Below are positions 1 through 7,704 of a stretch of 29,700 bases of DNA, in pieces; positions within the stretch are counted from its first letter, which is position 1; each line of letters opens with the position of its first letter. The DNA comes from a virus, in IMG/VR virus record IMGVR_UViG_3300030104_003196, positions 1-29,700 of that record, one strand, 5' to 3'. The notes under the pieces are model-generated. The model did no database searches, was not told where the DNA came from, and was given only the letters and a program-made list of their open reading frames with translations. The translations under genes and the position numbers were made by a program.

Positions 1-570
1 CCAACGTGGAAAACAGGAGACAGTCGGGACATACATGAAATTTTAGGTGGAGTAGAAGCCGACATGATTTTTAGTTGCCCACCTTACGCTGATCTGGAAG
101 TTTACAGTGACGACGAACGAGATATTTCTACTCTTTCTTACGATCAATTTGTAGCAGCATACAAAGAAATAATTATTAAAACCTGTTCACTTTTAAAGGA
201 TGATTCGTTTGCTTGTTTTGTTATTGGTGAAATTAGAGATAAAAAAGGAATTTATCGCAATTTTGTAGGAGACACCATTAATGCATTTATAGAAGCAGGA
301 TTAGATTATTACAACGAAGCTATCTTAGTGACTCCTGTTGGAACACTTGCCATAAGAACAGGACGTATCTTTTCGGCTGGTAGGAAGTTTGGTAAAACTC
401 ATCAAAACGTATTGGTCTTTGTTAAAGGCGACCCTAAAAAAGCAACGGAGAAATGTGGCCCTTGTGATTTTGGTGAAATCCATGAAGATCCAGCAGAATA
501 CGAACAGGAGCCAGAATCAACAGAATATGGTGAAAAATTAACGGCTGACTCAATCGGAGGAGAATTATAA
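1..570 (+). CDS. DNA methyltransferase, N4-cytosine/N6-adenine type, C-terminal part (5' end outside window)
   Basis: The reading frame is open to the left edge, so the gene is partial; 189 residues are visible and the ATG at 64 is internal. The fragment begins with a GDSRDI segment, followed by the catalytic motif SCPPY at visible residues 25-29, the motif IV of SAM-dependent amino-methyltransferases. Near the end is the RKFGKTHQNVLVF-type segment that I know from many phage methylases, often preceded by a ParB-like domain. No FxGxG SAM-binding motif follows motif IV, so motif I should lie upstream of the window. The last 35 residues are acidic. Its stop overlaps the next start (TAATG at 568-572), coupling it to the GNAT/oxygenase gene. 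Likely role: modifying phage DNA bases. The family call is firm; the target base is unknown. Confidence 0.85.
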   Translation, partial: PTWKTGDSRDIHEILGGVEADMIFSCPPYADLEVYSDDERDISTLSYDQFVAAYKEIIIKTCSLLKDDSFACFVIGEIRDKKGIYRNFVGDTINAFIEAGLDYYNEAILVTPVGTLAIRTGRIFSAGRKFGKTHQNVLVFVKGDPKKATEKCGPCDFGEIHEDPAEYEQEPESTEYGEKLTADSIGGEL

Positions 571-1718
571 TGGATGCTCCTGCTTGGGCTTTAGGGTTTG
601 AACTTTCCTTTTTAAAAGAAGTAGCCGCAATTTTCAAAAAGGAATTTAAACCACATACTTACGGTGCTTTTGGATTACCCAAAGAAAGAGACATTGCTAA
701 TGCGTTAAAGGACAAACAACTTGTTTGGGTTCGTCCTGATTCAGAAATTACAGCAGTTGCTATTTTTCGAATATCTAAATCAAAAAGCTTACAGACTGAT
801 TTTGCCCAAAGGAAAATAACTGTATTGAAAAATGATTTACAAGTTAAAGCGATAGCAGGCACAACGGCTGGAGTTCATACCCTGCTAACAAAACTAATAG
901 CAAAGTCTGGACCTCGTCCTACATGGGTTGAAGTCCACGCAGAAAACAGCCACGTACAAGACGTTATCCTAAAGTTAGGATTCTCAGCAGTAGCAACAAA
1001 AGTATCTGCTTCGTCTGATATAAAAACTTTATACGTTAAAAATGTCAACGAAACTCAACGGGTTTCTGGTTCCCTGTTTGAGTCTGATATTCCGGCTTTA
1101 AAATTATTAGGGAAAGGGGCAGATGTTGAAACAGTTCAACAATGCCTAAAAGAAATTAATCAATTTAAACCACCGTGGGAGCAACATTACAGTTCCTATA
1201 ACAAACGCAAATCTTGGACGGCTGTTGCGTTGCAGGGTTTTGATCCGGATGATCCGCAATTTATTATTAAACCCGAAGAAATGTCGAAAGGATGGAAGCT
1301 GTCAAATCCTAAAAGGTTATTAGCTAAATGTGCACCAACAGCAGCAGCTACAAGTCTTCCTACTGTATGGAAATTGGCAAATTCTATACCCGGTAAATTA
1401 GAAAGAGTTCGTCTAATGCGATTGCAAGCAAACAATGGTGAGTTGACAAGACATGCAGACATTACAGATAGAAATGCCGGAACATCTAACGGACGGATTG
1501 CTCGTCTACATATTCCATTGCAAACGGGAACAGGTTGTATTTTTTCTTCGTGGAATTTATCAGGAGAGAAGGTAATGTCTCACTTTCCTGCTGGATCTCT
1601 TTTTTATCTAGACATTAGGAAACCACACGCAGTTAAAAACACGAGTCAAACAACAAGGATTCATTTAGTAATTGATGTTGCTTGTAATTCTGAAACGAGG
1701 GCTTTAATCAATGCCTAA
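570..1718 (+). CDS. GNAT acetyltransferase-like domain fused to Fe(II)/2-oxoglutarate oxygenase (Asp/Asn beta-hydroxylase-like)
   Basis: 382 residues with two recognisable parts. Residues about 10-157 look like a GNAT fold: a central strand region ends in WVEVHAENSHVQ...LKLGF (about 119-138), the usual GNAT C-terminal signature. Residues about 175-372 resemble the aspartyl/asparaginyl beta-hydroxylase family. The iron triad is visible as HAD (H295, D297) and KPHAV (H353), with RIHLVID (R363) as the probable 2-oxoglutarate-binding arginine and RLHIPL at 312-317 as the characteristic strand. Both active sites look intact. It starts on the preceding stop codon and overlaps the PLP gene by 8 bases. 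The methylase context suggests DNA modification, and the Mu Mom protein is a known GNAT-fold DNA modifier. A protein or small-molecule substrate is possible. Domain calls are good; function is inferred. Confidence 0.8.
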   Translation: MDAPAWALGFELSFLKEVAAIFKKEFKPHTYGAFGLPKERDIANALKDKQLVWVRPDSEITAVAIFRISKSKSLQTDFAQRKITVLKNDLQVKAIAGTTAGVHTLLTKLIAKSGPRPTWVEVHAENSHVQDVILKLGFSAVATKVSASSDIKTLYVKNVNETQRVSGSLFESDIPALKLLGKGADVETVQQCLKEINQFKPPWEQHYSSYNKRKSWTAVALQGFDPDDPQFIIKPEEMSKGWKLSNPKRLLAKCAPTAAATSLPTVWKLANSIPGKLERVRLMRLQANNGELTRHADITDRNAGTSNGRIARLHIPLQTGTGCIFSSWNLSGEKVMSHFPAGSLFYLDIRKPHAVKNTSQTTRIHLVIDVACNSETRALINA

Positions 1719-2436
1719 TAACTGGTGGCAGCCAAAACCGATTATTGAAGAACACAATCGGTTTTTAGTAGTTCGTGATGATCTTGTACCGGGTGGTTCG
1801 AAAATGAGGTTTTTACCTTACTTGGTTAAGGATGCAAAAGAAGTTGTATTCGGTGGCCCTTTTTGTGGAGGTGCTCCGTATGCACTTTCAGTTTGGGGTG
1901 GCAGAACAAAAACCAAAGTGACGTTGTTTTATGCAAAAAGAAAAGAGCTACATACTAGACAAAAAAAAGCGTTAAAAAATGGTGCAACTATTTATCAGGT
2001 TCCGTATGGTTACATGTCTAATGTTCAATCAAAAGCAAAAAAATACGCAAAAGATAAAGGGGCTTTGTTTTTACCTTTAGGCTTTGATGTGTCAGAAGCA
2101 TCGAACCCATTTATCCATCAAATGAAATTAGTTCGTTCAATGGTTGGAAATGTGGACCAAGTATGGGCAGCGACAGGTTCAGGAATGCTTGCTCGTTGTT
2201 TAGGTAAAGCGTTTGATCCTATCCCTGTTCATGGTGTGATTGTGGGATTAGCAAGTCGGAACGAAAAGCAAACTTATTCATCAAATGTTACGTTACATAA
2301 GTACCCTAAAGACTTTTCATGGTCTAGTGGATATGAATCTCCTTTCCCTTCGTGTGGTAATTACGATTTAAAAGCGTGGGAAATGTGTCAAAAATTATCA
2401 AAAGGTAAAACGCTCTTTTGGAATGTTTTGGGTTGA
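1711..2436 (+). CDS. Compact PLP-dependent enzyme of fold type II (ACC deaminase/D-cysteine desulfhydrase-like)
   Basis: 241 residues, shorter than the roughly 330 usual for the ACC deaminase/cysteine desulfhydrase group. Residues 21-36 (VRDDLVPGGSKMRFLP) match the family's RDDL...GGNK.RK.. motif, making K31 the likely PLP-linking lysine. A glycine-rich ATGSGML segment at 154-160 fits the PLP phosphate-binding loop. The SNHxR segment that normally stacks near PLP is replaced by a GGPFCGGAP stretch at 48-56, so the substrate is probably not that of a classical ACC deaminase. The start overlaps the end of the oxygenase gene by 8 bases, and the small terminase gene follows after 3 bases. In this setting it may supply or attach an amino-acid-like group during base modification. 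The fold is well supported; the reaction is unknown. Confidence 0.72.
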   Translation: MPNNWWQPKPIIEEHNRFLVVRDDLVPGGSKMRFLPYLVKDAKEVVFGGPFCGGAPYALSVWGGRTKTKVTLFYAKRKELHTRQKKALKNGATIYQVPYGYMSNVQSKAKKYAKDKGALFLPLGFDVSEASNPFIHQMKLVRSMVGNVDQVWAATGSGMLARCLGKAFDPIPVHGVIVGLASRNEKQTYSSNVTLHKYPKDFSWSSGYESPFPSCGNYDLKAWEMCQKLSKGKTLFWNVLG

Positions 2437-2439
2437 ATT

Positions 2440-2763
2440 ATGCCTGCATCTAAATCAACAGCAGCAAAGGTGGAAATGAGAGTTAACAGAGTTGCTCGTC
2501 TGTTAGCTAATGGAGCTACTCGTTCGGAATGCGTTCAATATGGATCAAGTGAGTGGGGGGTTGGGGCAAGGCAAGTAGATAAATATATTCAAAAAGCTAG
2601 AAAAGTATTACGGGCCGACTGGGAAATTGATCGGCAAACAATGGTTGCTGAACTATTGTCTCAATTGGCTTCGCTGCAAAAGGAAGCAAGAAAAACTAAC
2701 AACCCTTCTGTTGCTTTAGGTTGTATTAATTCGGCTGCTCGAATAGCGAGGATATTAGATTGA
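2440..2763 (+). CDS. terS: Terminase small subunit (probable)
   Basis: 107 residues, directly upstream of the large terminase. Residues about 14-60 form a helix-turn-helix-like segment (VARLLANGATRSECVQY, then a GVGARQVDKYIQKAR recognition-like helix). The C-terminal half is helical and would serve oligomerisation. The pattern of a short DNA-binding head and helical tail just before terL is that of phage small terminases, which recognise the packaging site and regulate the motor. The start follows the PLP gene stop by 3 bases, without an obvious Shine-Dalgarno sequence. The stop codon overlaps the TTG start of terL. The call rests on position plus HTH character, since small terminases are poorly conserved. 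Confidence 0.75.
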   Translation: MPASKSTAAKVEMRVNRVARLLANGATRSECVQYGSSEWGVGARQVDKYIQKARKVLRADWEIDRQTMVAELLSQLASLQKEARKTNNPSVALGCINSAARIARILD

Positions 2764-4109
2764 CTATTTATGACAACATTCCATCAGGCTGTGTTCTCAC
2801 TAAAGCTGGAGATCAAGTTGACAGTCTGGATTTAGAGAAAATCCTTCAAAGGATTAGAAACGATTTACACCCGGGTCAACGAGATTTTGTTGATGATTCT
2901 ACTACTGAAATATTGGGCGTTTCTGCTGGTTATGGTGCAGGAAAAACAAGGGCATTAGCAGCAAAAACATTATTTATGGCGGCGGCAAATCAAGGGTTTA
3001 TCGGCTGCATTATGGAACCAACAGGCCCATTGATTCGTGATATATGGATGAATGATTTTGAACAATTTCTGGAAGAGTACGAGGTTCCTTACACTTTTAG
3101 GGCTTCACCGTTGCCAGAATATATCCTTCATTTGCCTATAGCTGATACGAAAATTTTATGTAGGTCGTTTGAAAACTGGTCGAGAATTATTGGTTTGAAC
3201 TTGGCTTATGTTTTAGCGGATGAAATAGATACTGTTAATCCAACAACCTGTCAACGGGCTTTTCCTAAGATCCTCGGACGACTTAGATCAGGAAATGTCC
3301 GGCAATTTGCAGCAGCGTCTACACCTGAAGGTTTCCGTTGGATGTGGCAAACATTCGGAAGCGAGGAAGCACAAGAAAGAGAAGATCGTAGGCTGATAAA
3401 AATGAAAACATCCGATAATCCGTATTTGCCTGCTGACTTTATTAAAAGATTAGAAGCGAACTACGACCCTAGCTTGTTACAGGCGTACTTAAATGGAGAA
3501 TTTACGAATTTAACGGCTGGTCAGGTGTACGACAGGTTTGATAGAAAATTACATATTTCAGACAAAAAATATGATTTTGAGGATGAGCCATTGCGTATCG
3601 GTATAGATTTCAATATTGGGAATATGTCGTCTGTAATTGGAGTTAGGGTAGGTGATAAGTTAATAATCATTGATGAAATCACAAAAGCACACGATACGGA
3701 TTCGCTAGCCAAAGAAGTAATACGTCGCTATCCTAACCGTAGGATTTTTGTTTACCCTGATTCCTCTGGAGGGAACCGTTCAACCAATGCAGCACAAACC
3801 GATATATCCATACTCGAGAGTTATGGTTTTACCAACCAAAGCCCAAAAGCAAACCCACCAATCCGTGATCGAGTCTCGTCTGTGCAAGCTCTTCTTGAGA
3901 ACGGACAAGGAAAAGTACGATTGGAGATTGCTTCCTGTTGCAAACGCTTGATTGAGTGCTTGGAACTTCAAAGCTATAACGAAAATGGAGACCCAGACAA
4001 AGAAGGTGGATACGACCATGTCAATGATGCTCTTGGCTACTTGGTATGGCGTGAATTTAATCCGTTATATGCTCGGGCAGGACGGGGCACAGGTATTAGA
4101 CTGTATTAA
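2760..4109 (+). CDS. terL: Terminase large subunit, ATPase plus nuclease
   Basis: 449 residues; the packaging motor that translocates and cuts concatemeric DNA at the portal. Walker A is SAGYGAGKT (55-63, K62), Walker B is YVLADE (150-155), and the coupling motif is AAASTPEG (184-191). The RNase H-like nuclease has GIDFN (D283), VYPDSSG (D334) and YDHVNDAL (D419/D423) as metal ligands. The start is a TTG overlapping the terS stop (TTGA at 2760-2763), with a GCGAGG-like ribosome site upstream. No ATG near the N-terminus retains the whole ATPase domain, which supports the TTG. Function is certain; the start is probable. Confidence 0.95.
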   Translation: MTIYDNIPSGCVLTKAGDQVDSLDLEKILQRIRNDLHPGQRDFVDDSTTEILGVSAGYGAGKTRALAAKTLFMAAANQGFIGCIMEPTGPLIRDIWMNDFEQFLEEYEVPYTFRASPLPEYILHLPIADTKILCRSFENWSRIIGLNLAYVLADEIDTVNPTTCQRAFPKILGRLRSGNVRQFAAASTPEGFRWMWQTFGSEEAQEREDRRLIKMKTSDNPYLPADFIKRLEANYDPSLLQAYLNGEFTNLTAGQVYDRFDRKLHISDKKYDFEDEPLRIGIDFNIGNMSSVIGVRVGDKLIIIDEITKAHDTDSLAKEVIRRYPNRRIFVYPDSSGGNRSTNAAQTDISILESYGFTNQSPKANPPIRDRVSSVQALLENGQGKVRLEIASCCKRLIECLELQSYNENGDPDKEGGYDHVNDALGYLVWREFNPLYARAGRGTGIRLY

Positions 4110-5583: not shown

Positions 5584-7704
5584 ATGGCCGACTTACCAAC
5601 CCCTGACACTTTTTATCGCCAAGCGATTGACCTTAATCGTTTTAGCAATGGAGTGTCTAAAAAATTAATTACAACCTATAACGACATCATTGTTGAAACA
5701 GCAAATAAATTACAACAAATAGACGAAACAACAGCACCATATACAGCAACTAGGCTTCGGTCATTATTGGCCCAATTAAAAGAATCGCTTGGAACGTGGG
5801 CGATAGATAGTGCAAATGTAACAAGGGAAGAGTTGCAGGGTTTGGCAGTTTTGCAGTCTGAGTTTGTGGAAAATGAGTTAAAAAAGCTGGTTCCTAAAGG
5901 AGAATATGTTCCTGTTAGGACTGTTGCTGTTAGTCCTGATTTTGCCAAATCAGTTGTTATGACTGACCCCACATCAGTCAATATTTTTAATGTTCCCGAT
6001 CAATTACAGGATGAATTGCGAGGGGGCAAATTCAAATTAACGGCACCGGAGGGTGCGTATATAACATTGCCAAATGGAACCACAGTGCAGAAAGCATTTC
6101 GTGGTTTAGCTGTTCAGCAGGCCGAACGATTTAGTCAGGTTGTTAGAAGTGGATTATTGGCAGGTGATACAACTCAGCAAATGGCTCGAAGATTAAAAGG
6201 TCGTTTGGAATTTGGGCAAACTGGAAATGTTAGACAAATTGCCTTAGCTGGAGGACATGCCACAAAAATGGCAAATCATCAGGTGATGACGATTGTTAGA
6301 ACTAGCGTTAATCAAGTTGCAAATACAGCAAGCAAAAGAGCGTTTGAAGCTAATTCTGATATTGCTAAAAAATATAAATATGTGGCGACTTTAGATAGCC
6401 GAACATCTGCCATTTGTGCTCAACTTGACGGTCAGAAATTCACATATAACAAAGGGCCAACCCCACCCCAACATTTTAATTGCAGATCAACAATCGTTCC
6501 TGTTATAGATGACGAATGGTACGAGCAGTTTGGAGAAACGCCACCGGATAAAGTCTTCGGGCCGGATGAAACAAAAAGGGCAGCCAAATGGGGGGAGGAA
6601 CAAAAGGGCAGACCAGTACCCGGAAATATGACATACGGACAATGGTTAGCTCGGCAACCTAAAGGGGTGCAGGCTGAAGTTTTAGGGAAAGAAAAGTCGG
6701 CTTATTTTCGTCGGTTGTCAAAACAAAAGGGTGGAAAGGATGCGTTGCGTTCAATTGTTCGTGAGGATGGGAGCGAGGTTTCGTTGAAACAATTAAAGGC
6801 TCGATACGGCGATCCTGCGAAATTGCAACCAAAGAGAACAGGAAGGAACAGACCGATTCAACCTATTGTTGATGATCCTAAGAAATTCTTCGAGAAACCC
6901 AGTTCTGTCAAATTAGGCAAAGGAGTAGCTGGAGAAGCTAGGTATGTATCCAACAGGCAAGGTGGAGTTGTTATTAAGCGTGGTCGTATAGCTGAAAACG
7001 AAGTTGCTTCTATGAGAAAGTTGCAGGATACAGGTGTTGTTCCTGAACTCTTCGGGTTTAAAAAATTAGAAAGGAAAGCACAGATTGCTTCGTCGTCAAC
7101 GGTAACAATTAAAACTGGATACTTAACAATGGGCAAAGCAAAGGGCAAGCCTTTAATGAAAGAAATTGCAGTAGGAGTTGCAGGTAAAAAAGAAGCTGTT
7201 GAAATGATGGACTCATATTTGGACGTTAGAAAATCTATTCACTTAAAAGGAATTGCTCATAACGATATGCACGGGATGAATTTCTTCTATGACAGAAAAA
7301 CAAAGAAAGGGATGGCAATAGATTTAGGAATGGCTCAATCAGATCCAAAAGCGGCATTAATTGAAGCTATAGGAACAGGGATTGGAGGACGTGGAGAATT
7401 TGCCCAAACAGGTGGAACTATGGCAACGATTAGAGACGGAATACAAACATTTGGAGGAGATTGGCAATCTACAAGAGTTATTGGTGAACTTGAATTGATT
7501 GGACCTGATGGATTCTTGGCAAAAAGTAGCTCCAAATATAAAAAATTTATTTCAAACAGAAAAAAAGTAAGAACCCTATTAAAAAAAGAGTTGGACGGAC
7601 CTGAATTAATGTCACGAAACATTAGGGAACGAACCGATAATCTTGTGGGTATTTCTGATGCAAAAGCACTAAAATATATCAACATGCTTTATGAAGGATT
7701 GTGA
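5584..7704 (+). CDS. MuF-like minor head protein with C-terminal protein kinase-like domain
   Basis: 706 residues, far longer than a plain MuF protein. Residues about 1-310 are head-morphogenesis-like and end in the MuF signature (YVATLDSRTS at 267-274, then PPQHFNCRS at 294-302). Residues about 320-410 follow the usual MuF trailing region (MTYGQWLARQPK, YFRRLSK, VSLKQLK). Residues about 440-600 look like a kinase: a glycine loop LGKGVAGEARY (444-454), VVIK with K465, a Glu in ENEV (E473), a hinge-like GYLTMGKAKGKP, a catalytic loop HNDMHGMN (H559, D561, N566) and IDLG with D580. All core catalytic residues are present. MuF proteins are minor virion components, so the kinase may enter the host with DNA. 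The MuF call is strong, the kinase fold likely, and its target unknown. Confidence 0.87.
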   Translation: MADLPTPDTFYRQAIDLNRFSNGVSKKLITTYNDIIVETANKLQQIDETTAPYTATRLRSLLAQLKESLGTWAIDSANVTREELQGLAVLQSEFVENELKKLVPKGEYVPVRTVAVSPDFAKSVVMTDPTSVNIFNVPDQLQDELRGGKFKLTAPEGAYITLPNGTTVQKAFRGLAVQQAERFSQVVRSGLLAGDTTQQMARRLKGRLEFGQTGNVRQIALAGGHATKMANHQVMTIVRTSVNQVANTASKRAFEANSDIAKKYKYVATLDSRTSAICAQLDGQKFTYNKGPTPPQHFNCRSTIVPVIDDEWYEQFGETPPDKVFGPDETKRAAKWGEEQKGRPVPGNMTYGQWLARQPKGVQAEVLGKEKSAYFRRLSKQKGGKDALRSIVREDGSEVSLKQLKARYGDPAKLQPKRTGRNRPIQPIVDDPKKFFEKPSSVKLGKGVAGEARYVSNRQGGVVIKRGRIAENEVASMRKLQDTGVVPELFGFKKLERKAQIASSSTVTIKTGYLTMGKAKGKPLMKEIAVGVAGKKEAVEMMDSYLDVRKSIHLKGIAHNDMHGMNFFYDRKTKKGMAIDLGMAQSDPKAALIEAIGTGIGGRGEFAQTGGTMATIRDGIQTFGGDWQSTRVIGELELIGPDGFLAKSSSKYKKFISNRKKVRTLLKKELDGPELMSRNIRERTDNLVGISDAKALKYINMLYEGL

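Follow-up and report, generated by a model that had tools for sequence, protein, structure and literature searches.

The window, a 29,700-base stretch that forms the first part of a 30,360-base virus contig (IMGVR_UViG_3300030104_003196) from a marine phage, opens with three coupled genes that very probably constitute a hypermodification system for the phage's own DNA. Taken as a whole, these genes are best explained, with a probability that we put at roughly one half, by a pathway that starts with the ParB-guided transfer of an arm of SAM to a base of the DNA. The initial annotation had already proposed a hypermodification cassette beside the terminase, a proposal for which conservation, the fusion of domains and the co-occurrence with amino acid:DNA transferase (ADDT) systems now give strong support; its reading of the pathway was correct in general type and mistaken in several of its parts.

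Gene content and domain assignments

All open reading frames of the cassette and of the adjoining terminase lie on the + strand, and neighbors either overlap or are 3 bases apart. Gene 1 (positions 1–570, +), open at the contig start, encodes the C-terminal motif IV (SCPPY) half of a ParB-methyltransferase (MT) fusion; gene 2 (570–1718, +) encodes a 382-residue fusion of a GNAT-like domain to an Fe(II)/2OG oxygenase of the Asp/Asn/Pro-hydroxylase type; and gene 3 (1711–2436, +) encodes a compact fold-type II PLP enzyme of 241 residues. Three bases beyond gene 3 begins a small terS-like gene (2440–2763, +; phrog_34910, E = 2e-32, a family without a named function) that is co-inherited with the cassette, followed by terL, the terminase large subunit (2760–4109, +; PF17289, PF03237 and phrog_2), a neighbor outside the pathway. 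The three cassette genes are real and are translationally coupled to the terminase, running into terS and terL as the initial annotation had described.

Gene 1 belongs by sequence to the N4/N6 amino-methyltransferases, as its SCPPY motif had been taken to indicate, with matches to PF01555 (N6_N4_Mtase; E = 3e-6, above the Pfam cut-off) and to phrog_498 (E = 4e-60, at positions 456–617 of a 633-position profile; FSCPPYADLEVYSDD). Enzymes of this class combine, in a SAM-binding fold, a DPFxGxG motif I with a (D/N/S)PP(Y/F/W) motif IV, which in gene 1 takes the variant form CPPY, with Cys at the first position; the motif IV region ADMIFSCPPYADLEV (58–102, +) corresponds to the target-base pocket of an amino-methyltransferase. 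C-P-P-Y recurs in nearly all of 217 family members, and S-P-P-Y is found in a few. Gene 1 comprises the motif IV half only, cut off by the end of the virus record, with which the window begins. Complete homologues consist of ParB, motif I and motif IV, and one of them, of 535 residues (locus L003, 5253–6860), is 97% identical across the shared part. In these complete homologues motif I, in the half that the window gene lacks, reads DPFAGGSVRG and precedes motif IV, the opposite of the order in the nearest solved methyltransferase, 2zie. Motif I still resembles that of a SAM methyltransferase, so that plain methyl transfer is possible on this basis.

Within gene 2, a double-stranded beta-helix oxygenase domain (1125–1715, +; H295, D297, H353 and R363) matches PF05118 (Asp_Arg_Hydrox) with E = 1e-8 over residues 192–370, above the Pfam cut-off. 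The domain combines the hallmarks of that family, namely an HxD...H iron triad, a 2OG-binding Arg and the double-stranded beta-helix, and its facial triad H295/D297/H353 together with R363 is invariant or nearly so in 40 homologues. The predicted model of gene 2 (pLDDT 94.7) matches the fold of L-proline cis-4-hydroxylase (4p7x) with a Z score of 16.7. By sequence profile and fold, the nearest solved relatives of the oxygenase are L-proline cis-4-hydroxylase, proline 3-hydroxylase, AspH and a beta-hydroxylase of nucleoside-antibiotic biosynthesis; human PHD2 and AlkB stand lower in the lists of relatives, where they are expected, since all belong to one superfamily. PF12851 (Tet_JBP) gave no match to gene 2 at E ≤ 1 while PF05118 did, a result that is still compatible with a distant relation. 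Sequence and predicted model together place the oxygenase in the amino-acid/peptide-hydroxylase branch, with L-proline cis-4-hydroxylase and AspH, rather than with the TET/JBP enzymes to which it had previously been likened.

The N-terminal domain of gene 2 (residues about 1–165; 570–1064, +) is probably a GNAT domain, judged chiefly by the order of helices and strands in the predicted model, which is of GNAT type; the signal in its sequence is weak. Acetyltransf_18 is marginal in 4 of 36 GNAT-AspH members (best E = 0.013), the gene 2 domain itself has no significant Pfam match, sequence searches returned no meaningful solved relatives of it, and no canonical Q/RxxGxG/A motif was seen. Fold searches were run with the whole gene 2 model, and their matches were filled by the oxygenase half. 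In the single chain described by the initial annotation as GNAT plus Fe/2OG oxygenase, then, the oxygenase is well founded and the GNAT part probable, but no similarity to Mom of phage Mu was detected: hhalign against one Mom sequence gave a probability of 0.3%.

Gene 3 matches phrog_7093 (E = 2e-28) and, below Pfam's cut-off, PALP (E = 1e-5). Its model aligns over the full length with D-cysteine desulfhydrase/ACC-deaminase homologues (Z = 24.2 over 239 residues against D-Cys desulfhydrase, 4d9c), and along with the whole fold it has the Schiff-base Lys (K31 in PGGSK) and the glycine-rich phosphate loop (G156-S-G158) of fold-type II PLP (PALP) enzymes, K31 and GSG both being invariant in 60 PLP homologues. 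Structure prediction, a check that the initial annotation had named, thus yielded models that fit an AspH/proline-hydroxylase-type oxygenase with a GNAT-like domain for gene 2 and the fold-II PLP enzyme already suspected for gene 3. ACC deaminase and D-cysteine desulfhydrase carry a substrate loop, SNHTR, whose Ser and Asn lie beside PLP. Because gene 3 has GGPFCGGAPYA (P..G.A) in place of this usual loop, its substrate likely differs.

Linkage, nesting and association with amino acid:DNA transferases

Tens of independent contigs carry these genes in an identical order, which puts the arrangement far beyond chance; the trio, for which the initial annotation had suggested a search in other phages, also occurs beside unrelated terminases. 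In scans seeded with family members, limited to the best 80 loci and counted over distinct sequences that have 2.5 kb of flank or more, the MT is no farther than 5 kb away for 57 of 61 PLP genes, and 25 of 32 GNAT-AspH genes lie near the MT and 25 of 32 near a PLP gene. Given this seeding and selection, the fractions describe relatives of the window and not all phages. AspH-type proteins that lack the GNAT domain came out of the same scan and so serve as a useful control; they are near the MT or a PLP gene in 0 of 27 cases. Across marine contigs, MT, GNAT-AspH, PLP and terS stay together in loci where terL may be only 24–33% identical, the terS-like gene being kept at 69–99% identity in these and other loci. 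In one locus (L002) GNAT-AspH and PLP share about 95% identity with those of the window, the MT is only 64% identical, and neither terS nor terL shows similarity to the window's. MT, GNAT-AspH and PLP are a unit, beyond mere neighbors.

This unit extends into single polypeptides. The PLP domain of Erythrobacter phages R6L and ZS04 and of Pseudanabaena phage Pam4 is inserted inside the MT, between its motif I and SCPPY halves, and loci L049 and L051 join GNAT-AspH to the motif IV half of the MT in one protein. Locus L050 encodes one chain of 1192 residues, counted from the first likely Met, in the order ParB, MT motif I half, PLP, GNAT, AspH and MT motif IV half. Such nested fusions argue strongly that the parts act in a single reaction sequence on DNA.

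The MT core also occurs without these partners. Among 140 MT relatives with an FAGG..R motif I, 66 have neither PLP, GNAT-AspH nor AdoMet decarboxylase, indicating that the core can act on its own in some way. The frequent downstream neighbor of these lone MTs is a terminase-like gene; when a hidden common partner was sought among their neighbors, no tailoring-enzyme family stood out. PLP and GNAT-AspH are gained or lost many times on the MT tree, and no column clearly discriminates MTs with PLP from those without it, as expected if PLP works downstream. From both observations, PLP and GNAT-AspH appear to be optional tailoring modules added to a shared core. GNAT-AspH is additionally found beside other methyltransferases, of C5 type with SPPC in L056 and of N-type in L065 and L069.

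A second genomic setting ties the GNAT-AspH fusion to amino acids borne on DNA. In mycobacteriophage LilMcDreamy, gp1–gp4 encode ParB, a TET/JBP-like oxygenase (annotated as a queuine tRNA-ribosyltransferase), a PF18724 ADDT and a GNAT-AspH homologue, followed by the terminase; the gene 2 model superposes on gp4 with TM scores of 0.83/0.86 over 376 columns. A diverged copy of this order (58–61% identity), with Tet_JBP and ADDT above Pfam cut-offs, is present in locus L067. In the same slot, Vincenzo, a mycobacteriophage of the same subfamily as LilMcDreamy, carries ParB-MT and PLP, and Phelemich carries TET/JBP-like, ADDT-like and flavoprotein genes. The Vincenzo PLP enzyme is distantly related to that of ViI-like Kutterviruses (tblastn E about 1e-9, 62% of the query). 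When LilMcDreamy proteins were searched against all loci by tblastn, ADDT and a TET/JBP-like gene were found beside GNAT-AspH only in L026/L068 and L067, and neither was found beside any MT/GNAT-AspH/PLP trio, the window being the start of an incomplete genome. It is because GNAT-AspH homologues follow TET/JBP and ADDT in two other phages that we connect the fusion with DNA-borne amino acids. GNAT-AspH would accordingly serve two different entry routes, both of which would lead to a DNA-borne amino-acid adduct.

A decarboxylase-linked sister clade and the proposed pathway

In Pseudomonas phage ZRG1 and Croceibacter phage P2559S, a homologous ParB-MT lies directly 5' of an AdoMet decarboxylase (PF02675; E = 2e-23 and 2e-19, respectively), which in P2559S is a proven AdoMet decarboxylase (PMC9992855). 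Motif I of this sister clade changes from FAGG[SP]xRG to FAGD[ST]xFG, with loss of the Arg and gain of an Asp. Among 205 MT members classed by motif I, the decarboxylase is present with 61 of 65 FAGD..F enzymes and with 0 of 140 FAGG..R enzymes, an association whose Fisher p of 7e-48 overstates independence, since its one evolutionary origin means that it does not represent many independent events. After clustering at 85%, all 39 decarboxylase-linked MTs are of the D..F type, and the decarboxylase is always downstream on the same strand. The decarboxylase-linked MTs form one clade within the family tree (SH-aLRT 100), so that the link has one origin and long retention. Decarboxylated SAM is the cell's aminopropyl donor, and the Arg and Asp changes in the cofactor motif would fit a cofactor without a carboxylate; the decarboxylase of the sister clade might instead serve polyamine synthesis. 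This sister system, like the ParB domain and the MT-PLP nesting, lay beyond what the initial annotation could see.

We propose that a ParB-guided protein with an N4/N6 DNA methyltransferase fold binds phage DNA and attaches a SAM-derived side chain, most likely to the exocyclic amine of A or C. The preferred donor arm would be 3-amino-3-carboxypropyl, yielding a DNA-bound amino acid; we favor it because a methyl group offers a PLP enzyme, a GNAT and an amino-acid hydroxylase little, whereas an amino-acid arm suits all three, and SAM is suggested as the source of the arm by the decarboxylase sister clade. The nested or adjacent fold-II PLP enzyme would then act on the DNA-bound amino acid by decarboxylation, elimination or deamination; decarboxylation, perhaps the step used, would arrive at the aminopropyl product that the decarboxylase route also yields. 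In further steps the AspH/proline-hydroxylase-type oxygenase would hydroxylate the side chain and the GNAT domain would acylate an amine, and the modified product may shield packaged DNA from nucleases. What is shown of this scheme are the protein families, the conserved catalytic residues, the gene coupling, the nesting and the link to ADDT systems, and what is inferred are the base, the arm, the sequence of steps and the function. For the specific claim that the MT transfers the aminocarboxypropyl (or aminopropyl) arm of SAM and not a methyl group, with PLP, GNAT and AspH tailoring it, we judge the chances to be slightly below even. More tentatively, the two systems might represent a new class of DNA modification, in which methyltransferase-fold enzymes load a base with an arm, aminocarboxypropyl from SAM in the window type and aminopropyl from decarboxylated SAM in the sister type, PLP decarboxylation and AdoMet decarboxylase being two unrelated ways to the same aminopropyl-DNA, with AspH supplying hydroxyl groups and GNAT acyl groups.

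Within DNA hypermodification the chief alternative, which we consider unlikely, is that the PLP enzyme itself performs the attachment: aminoacrylate formed from serine, O-acetylserine or cysteine would be attacked by a base flipped into the MT-fold domain, a beta-replacement as in willardiine/lupinic acid synthesis, and GNAT and AspH would again tailor the product. Nesting of PLP in the MT may bring its active site next to the flipped base, its fold is that of the aminoacrylate-forming cysteine synthase and D-Cys desulfhydrase, and fold-II enzymes that alkylate nucleobase nitrogens provide a precedent. Such a route leaves the AdoMet-decarboxylase sister clade and the motif I change unexplained, however, and some half of the FAGG..R family is without PLP although no column clearly sets the MT core of these members apart. 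Moreover, the loop with which cysteine synthase binds the substrate carboxylate, SSGNT, is replaced by P..G.A in gene 3.

It is improbable, in our view, that the ParB-MT works as a conventional N6-A or N4-C methylase and that PLP and GNAT-AspH are auxiliary metabolic or protein-modifying genes. PF01555 membership and the 66 partnerless family members would agree with this, and phages do carry metabolic genes, but the near-obligate PLP-MT linkage, the nesting and the single-chain fusion argue against it, as does the position of GNAT-AspH after ADDT in two other phages. Bacterial genomes point the same way: one pattern scan, at its sensitivity, found no GNAT-AspH relative among 54 pattern matches, and the PLP relatives there, probably in prophages and mainly of Alphaproteobacteria, mostly lie directly downstream of the same MT. 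Least credible is the scheme of the initial annotation, in which a base is methylated, the methyl group hydroxylated by a TET-like enzyme and the product acylated or aminated in a Mom-like step, because, although a methyltransferase, 2OG oxygenase, GNAT and PLP enzyme are all there, the oxygenase groups with proline/Asp hydroxylases, the MT is of the amino and not the C5 type, and no Mom similarity was detected; tailoring of an amino-acid-like adduct fits better.

Transfer of a SAM arm by the ParB-MT would unite four phage gene families, so far anonymous, in a single testable pathway and would explain why an AdoMet decarboxylase, in marine phages usually read as polyamine metabolism, stands directly behind a DNA 'methyltransferase'. 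If it is true, DNA receives amino-acid or polyamine-like arms from SAM, and the cassette would be a modular enzyme set for labeling DNA and likely an anti-restriction device. The question is directly testable because cultured phages carry parts of the system (Vincenzo, AlanGrant, R6L, ZS04, Pam4, Mae-JY30, LilMcDreamy, P2559S and ZRG1).

Relation to known DNA modification systems

Neither the phrog_498 MT nor the concept of amino-acid hypermodification is new. In the open-access literature we found no prior description of a pathway with exactly this gene set, in keeping with the initial annotation, nor of DNA aminocarboxypropylation, of decarboxylated SAM in phage DNA modification or of an AdoMet decarboxylase together with ParB. 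To our knowledge, transfer of an amino-acid or polyamine-like arm from SAM is known from tRNA, rRNA and polyamines, not from DNA.

Phages ViI and M6 are said, in work by Lee et al. of 2018 and 2022, to put an amino acid on 5-hmdU and to sculpt the adduct with PLP decarboxylases, radical SAM isomerases, flavin lyases and acetyltransferases; we know of no AspH-type oxygenase among these sculpting enzymes. The cassette resembles this thymidine hypermodification in that a DNA-borne amino acid, here a proposed one, would be tailored by PLP and acyltransferase enzymes. It differs in having no adjoining 5-hmdU kinase or ADDT, and entry would be by a ParB-methyltransferase-fold enzyme. Mom of phage Mu, which makes N6-carbamoylmethyladenine, is likewise a GNAT-fold enzyme modifying phage DNA, but it shares no detectable profile similarity with the GNAT-like domain of the window, which is fused to a 2OG oxygenase. 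Other phrog_498 ParB-MTs, such as those of Listeria phage B054 and Enterococcus phage phiFL3A, represent the same core enzyme, often to the left of the terminase, but stand alone, without PLP, GNAT-AspH or AdoMet decarboxylase.

A further parallel is the 5-carboxymethylcytosine pathway of Synechococcus phage S-B43, formed by CmoA, CmoX and CmoY, in which CmoX, an SPPC-motif enzyme acting on C5 of cytosine, uses Cx-SAM (PMC12783734). There, too, an enzyme with a DNA methyltransferase fold draws on a SAM derivative to install a handle on a base, a second enzyme extends that handle with an amino acid, and ParB genes are often nearby (PMC12783734). In contrast to CmoX, the core of the window system is an N-type CPPY enzyme, and its partners are PLP, GNAT-AspH or, in the sister clade, AdoMet decarboxylase.

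Genes downstream of the cassette

Identity comparison across loci shows that the terS-like gene of the window (2440-2763) was co-inherited with the cassette at 69–99% identity, terL being swapped meanwhile. Further downstream, a Mu F-like head-morphogenesis protein (PF04233; window 5584-7704) shares its chain with a protein-kinase-like domain (HNDMHGMN motif; Pkinase at E = 9e-5); the fusion could be an effector that is injected to act inside the bacterial host.

A mycobacteriophage family labelled as a queuine enzyme

The mycobacteriophage phrog_6059 proteins (LilMcDreamy gp2, L026:855-1787; L372:810-1673; L067:5111-5971), labelled 'queuine tRNA-ribosyltransferase', look like TET/JBP oxygenases in sequence; the L067 copy has a PF12851 match (E = 9e-9) and an HRD...WVHGVTP...R pattern. 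Because of this likeness, the label may be mistaken in mycobacteriophages, as perhaps are some DpdA calls resting on it.

Variation among related cassettes

In the related locus L118 (1061-2980), the GNAT-AspH gene appears to be split by an intein-like insertion immediately ahead of the conserved SSYNKR. In L017, a 206-aa gene belonging to no known family (6242-6862) is inserted between ParB-MT and GNAT-AspH. An extended form of the proposed cassette pathway is encoded at L069 (4211-9188; probably a T4-like phage), where an N-type methyltransferase, GNAT-AspH, a 2-hydroxyacid dehydrogenase, a PLP enzyme, and a protein matching no Pfam family, possibly a glycosyltransferase, lie consecutively. 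L056 (5746-9765) carries the cassette's GNAT-AspH and PLP tailoring pair with a different core enzyme: a C5 methyltransferase precedes GNAT-AspH, and the PLP gene follows ∼0.9 kb beyond. The SPPC motif of this methyltransferase is likewise described for CmoX, the C5 cytosine enzyme of the Synechococcus phage S-B43 5-carboxymethylcytosine pathway (PMC12783734).
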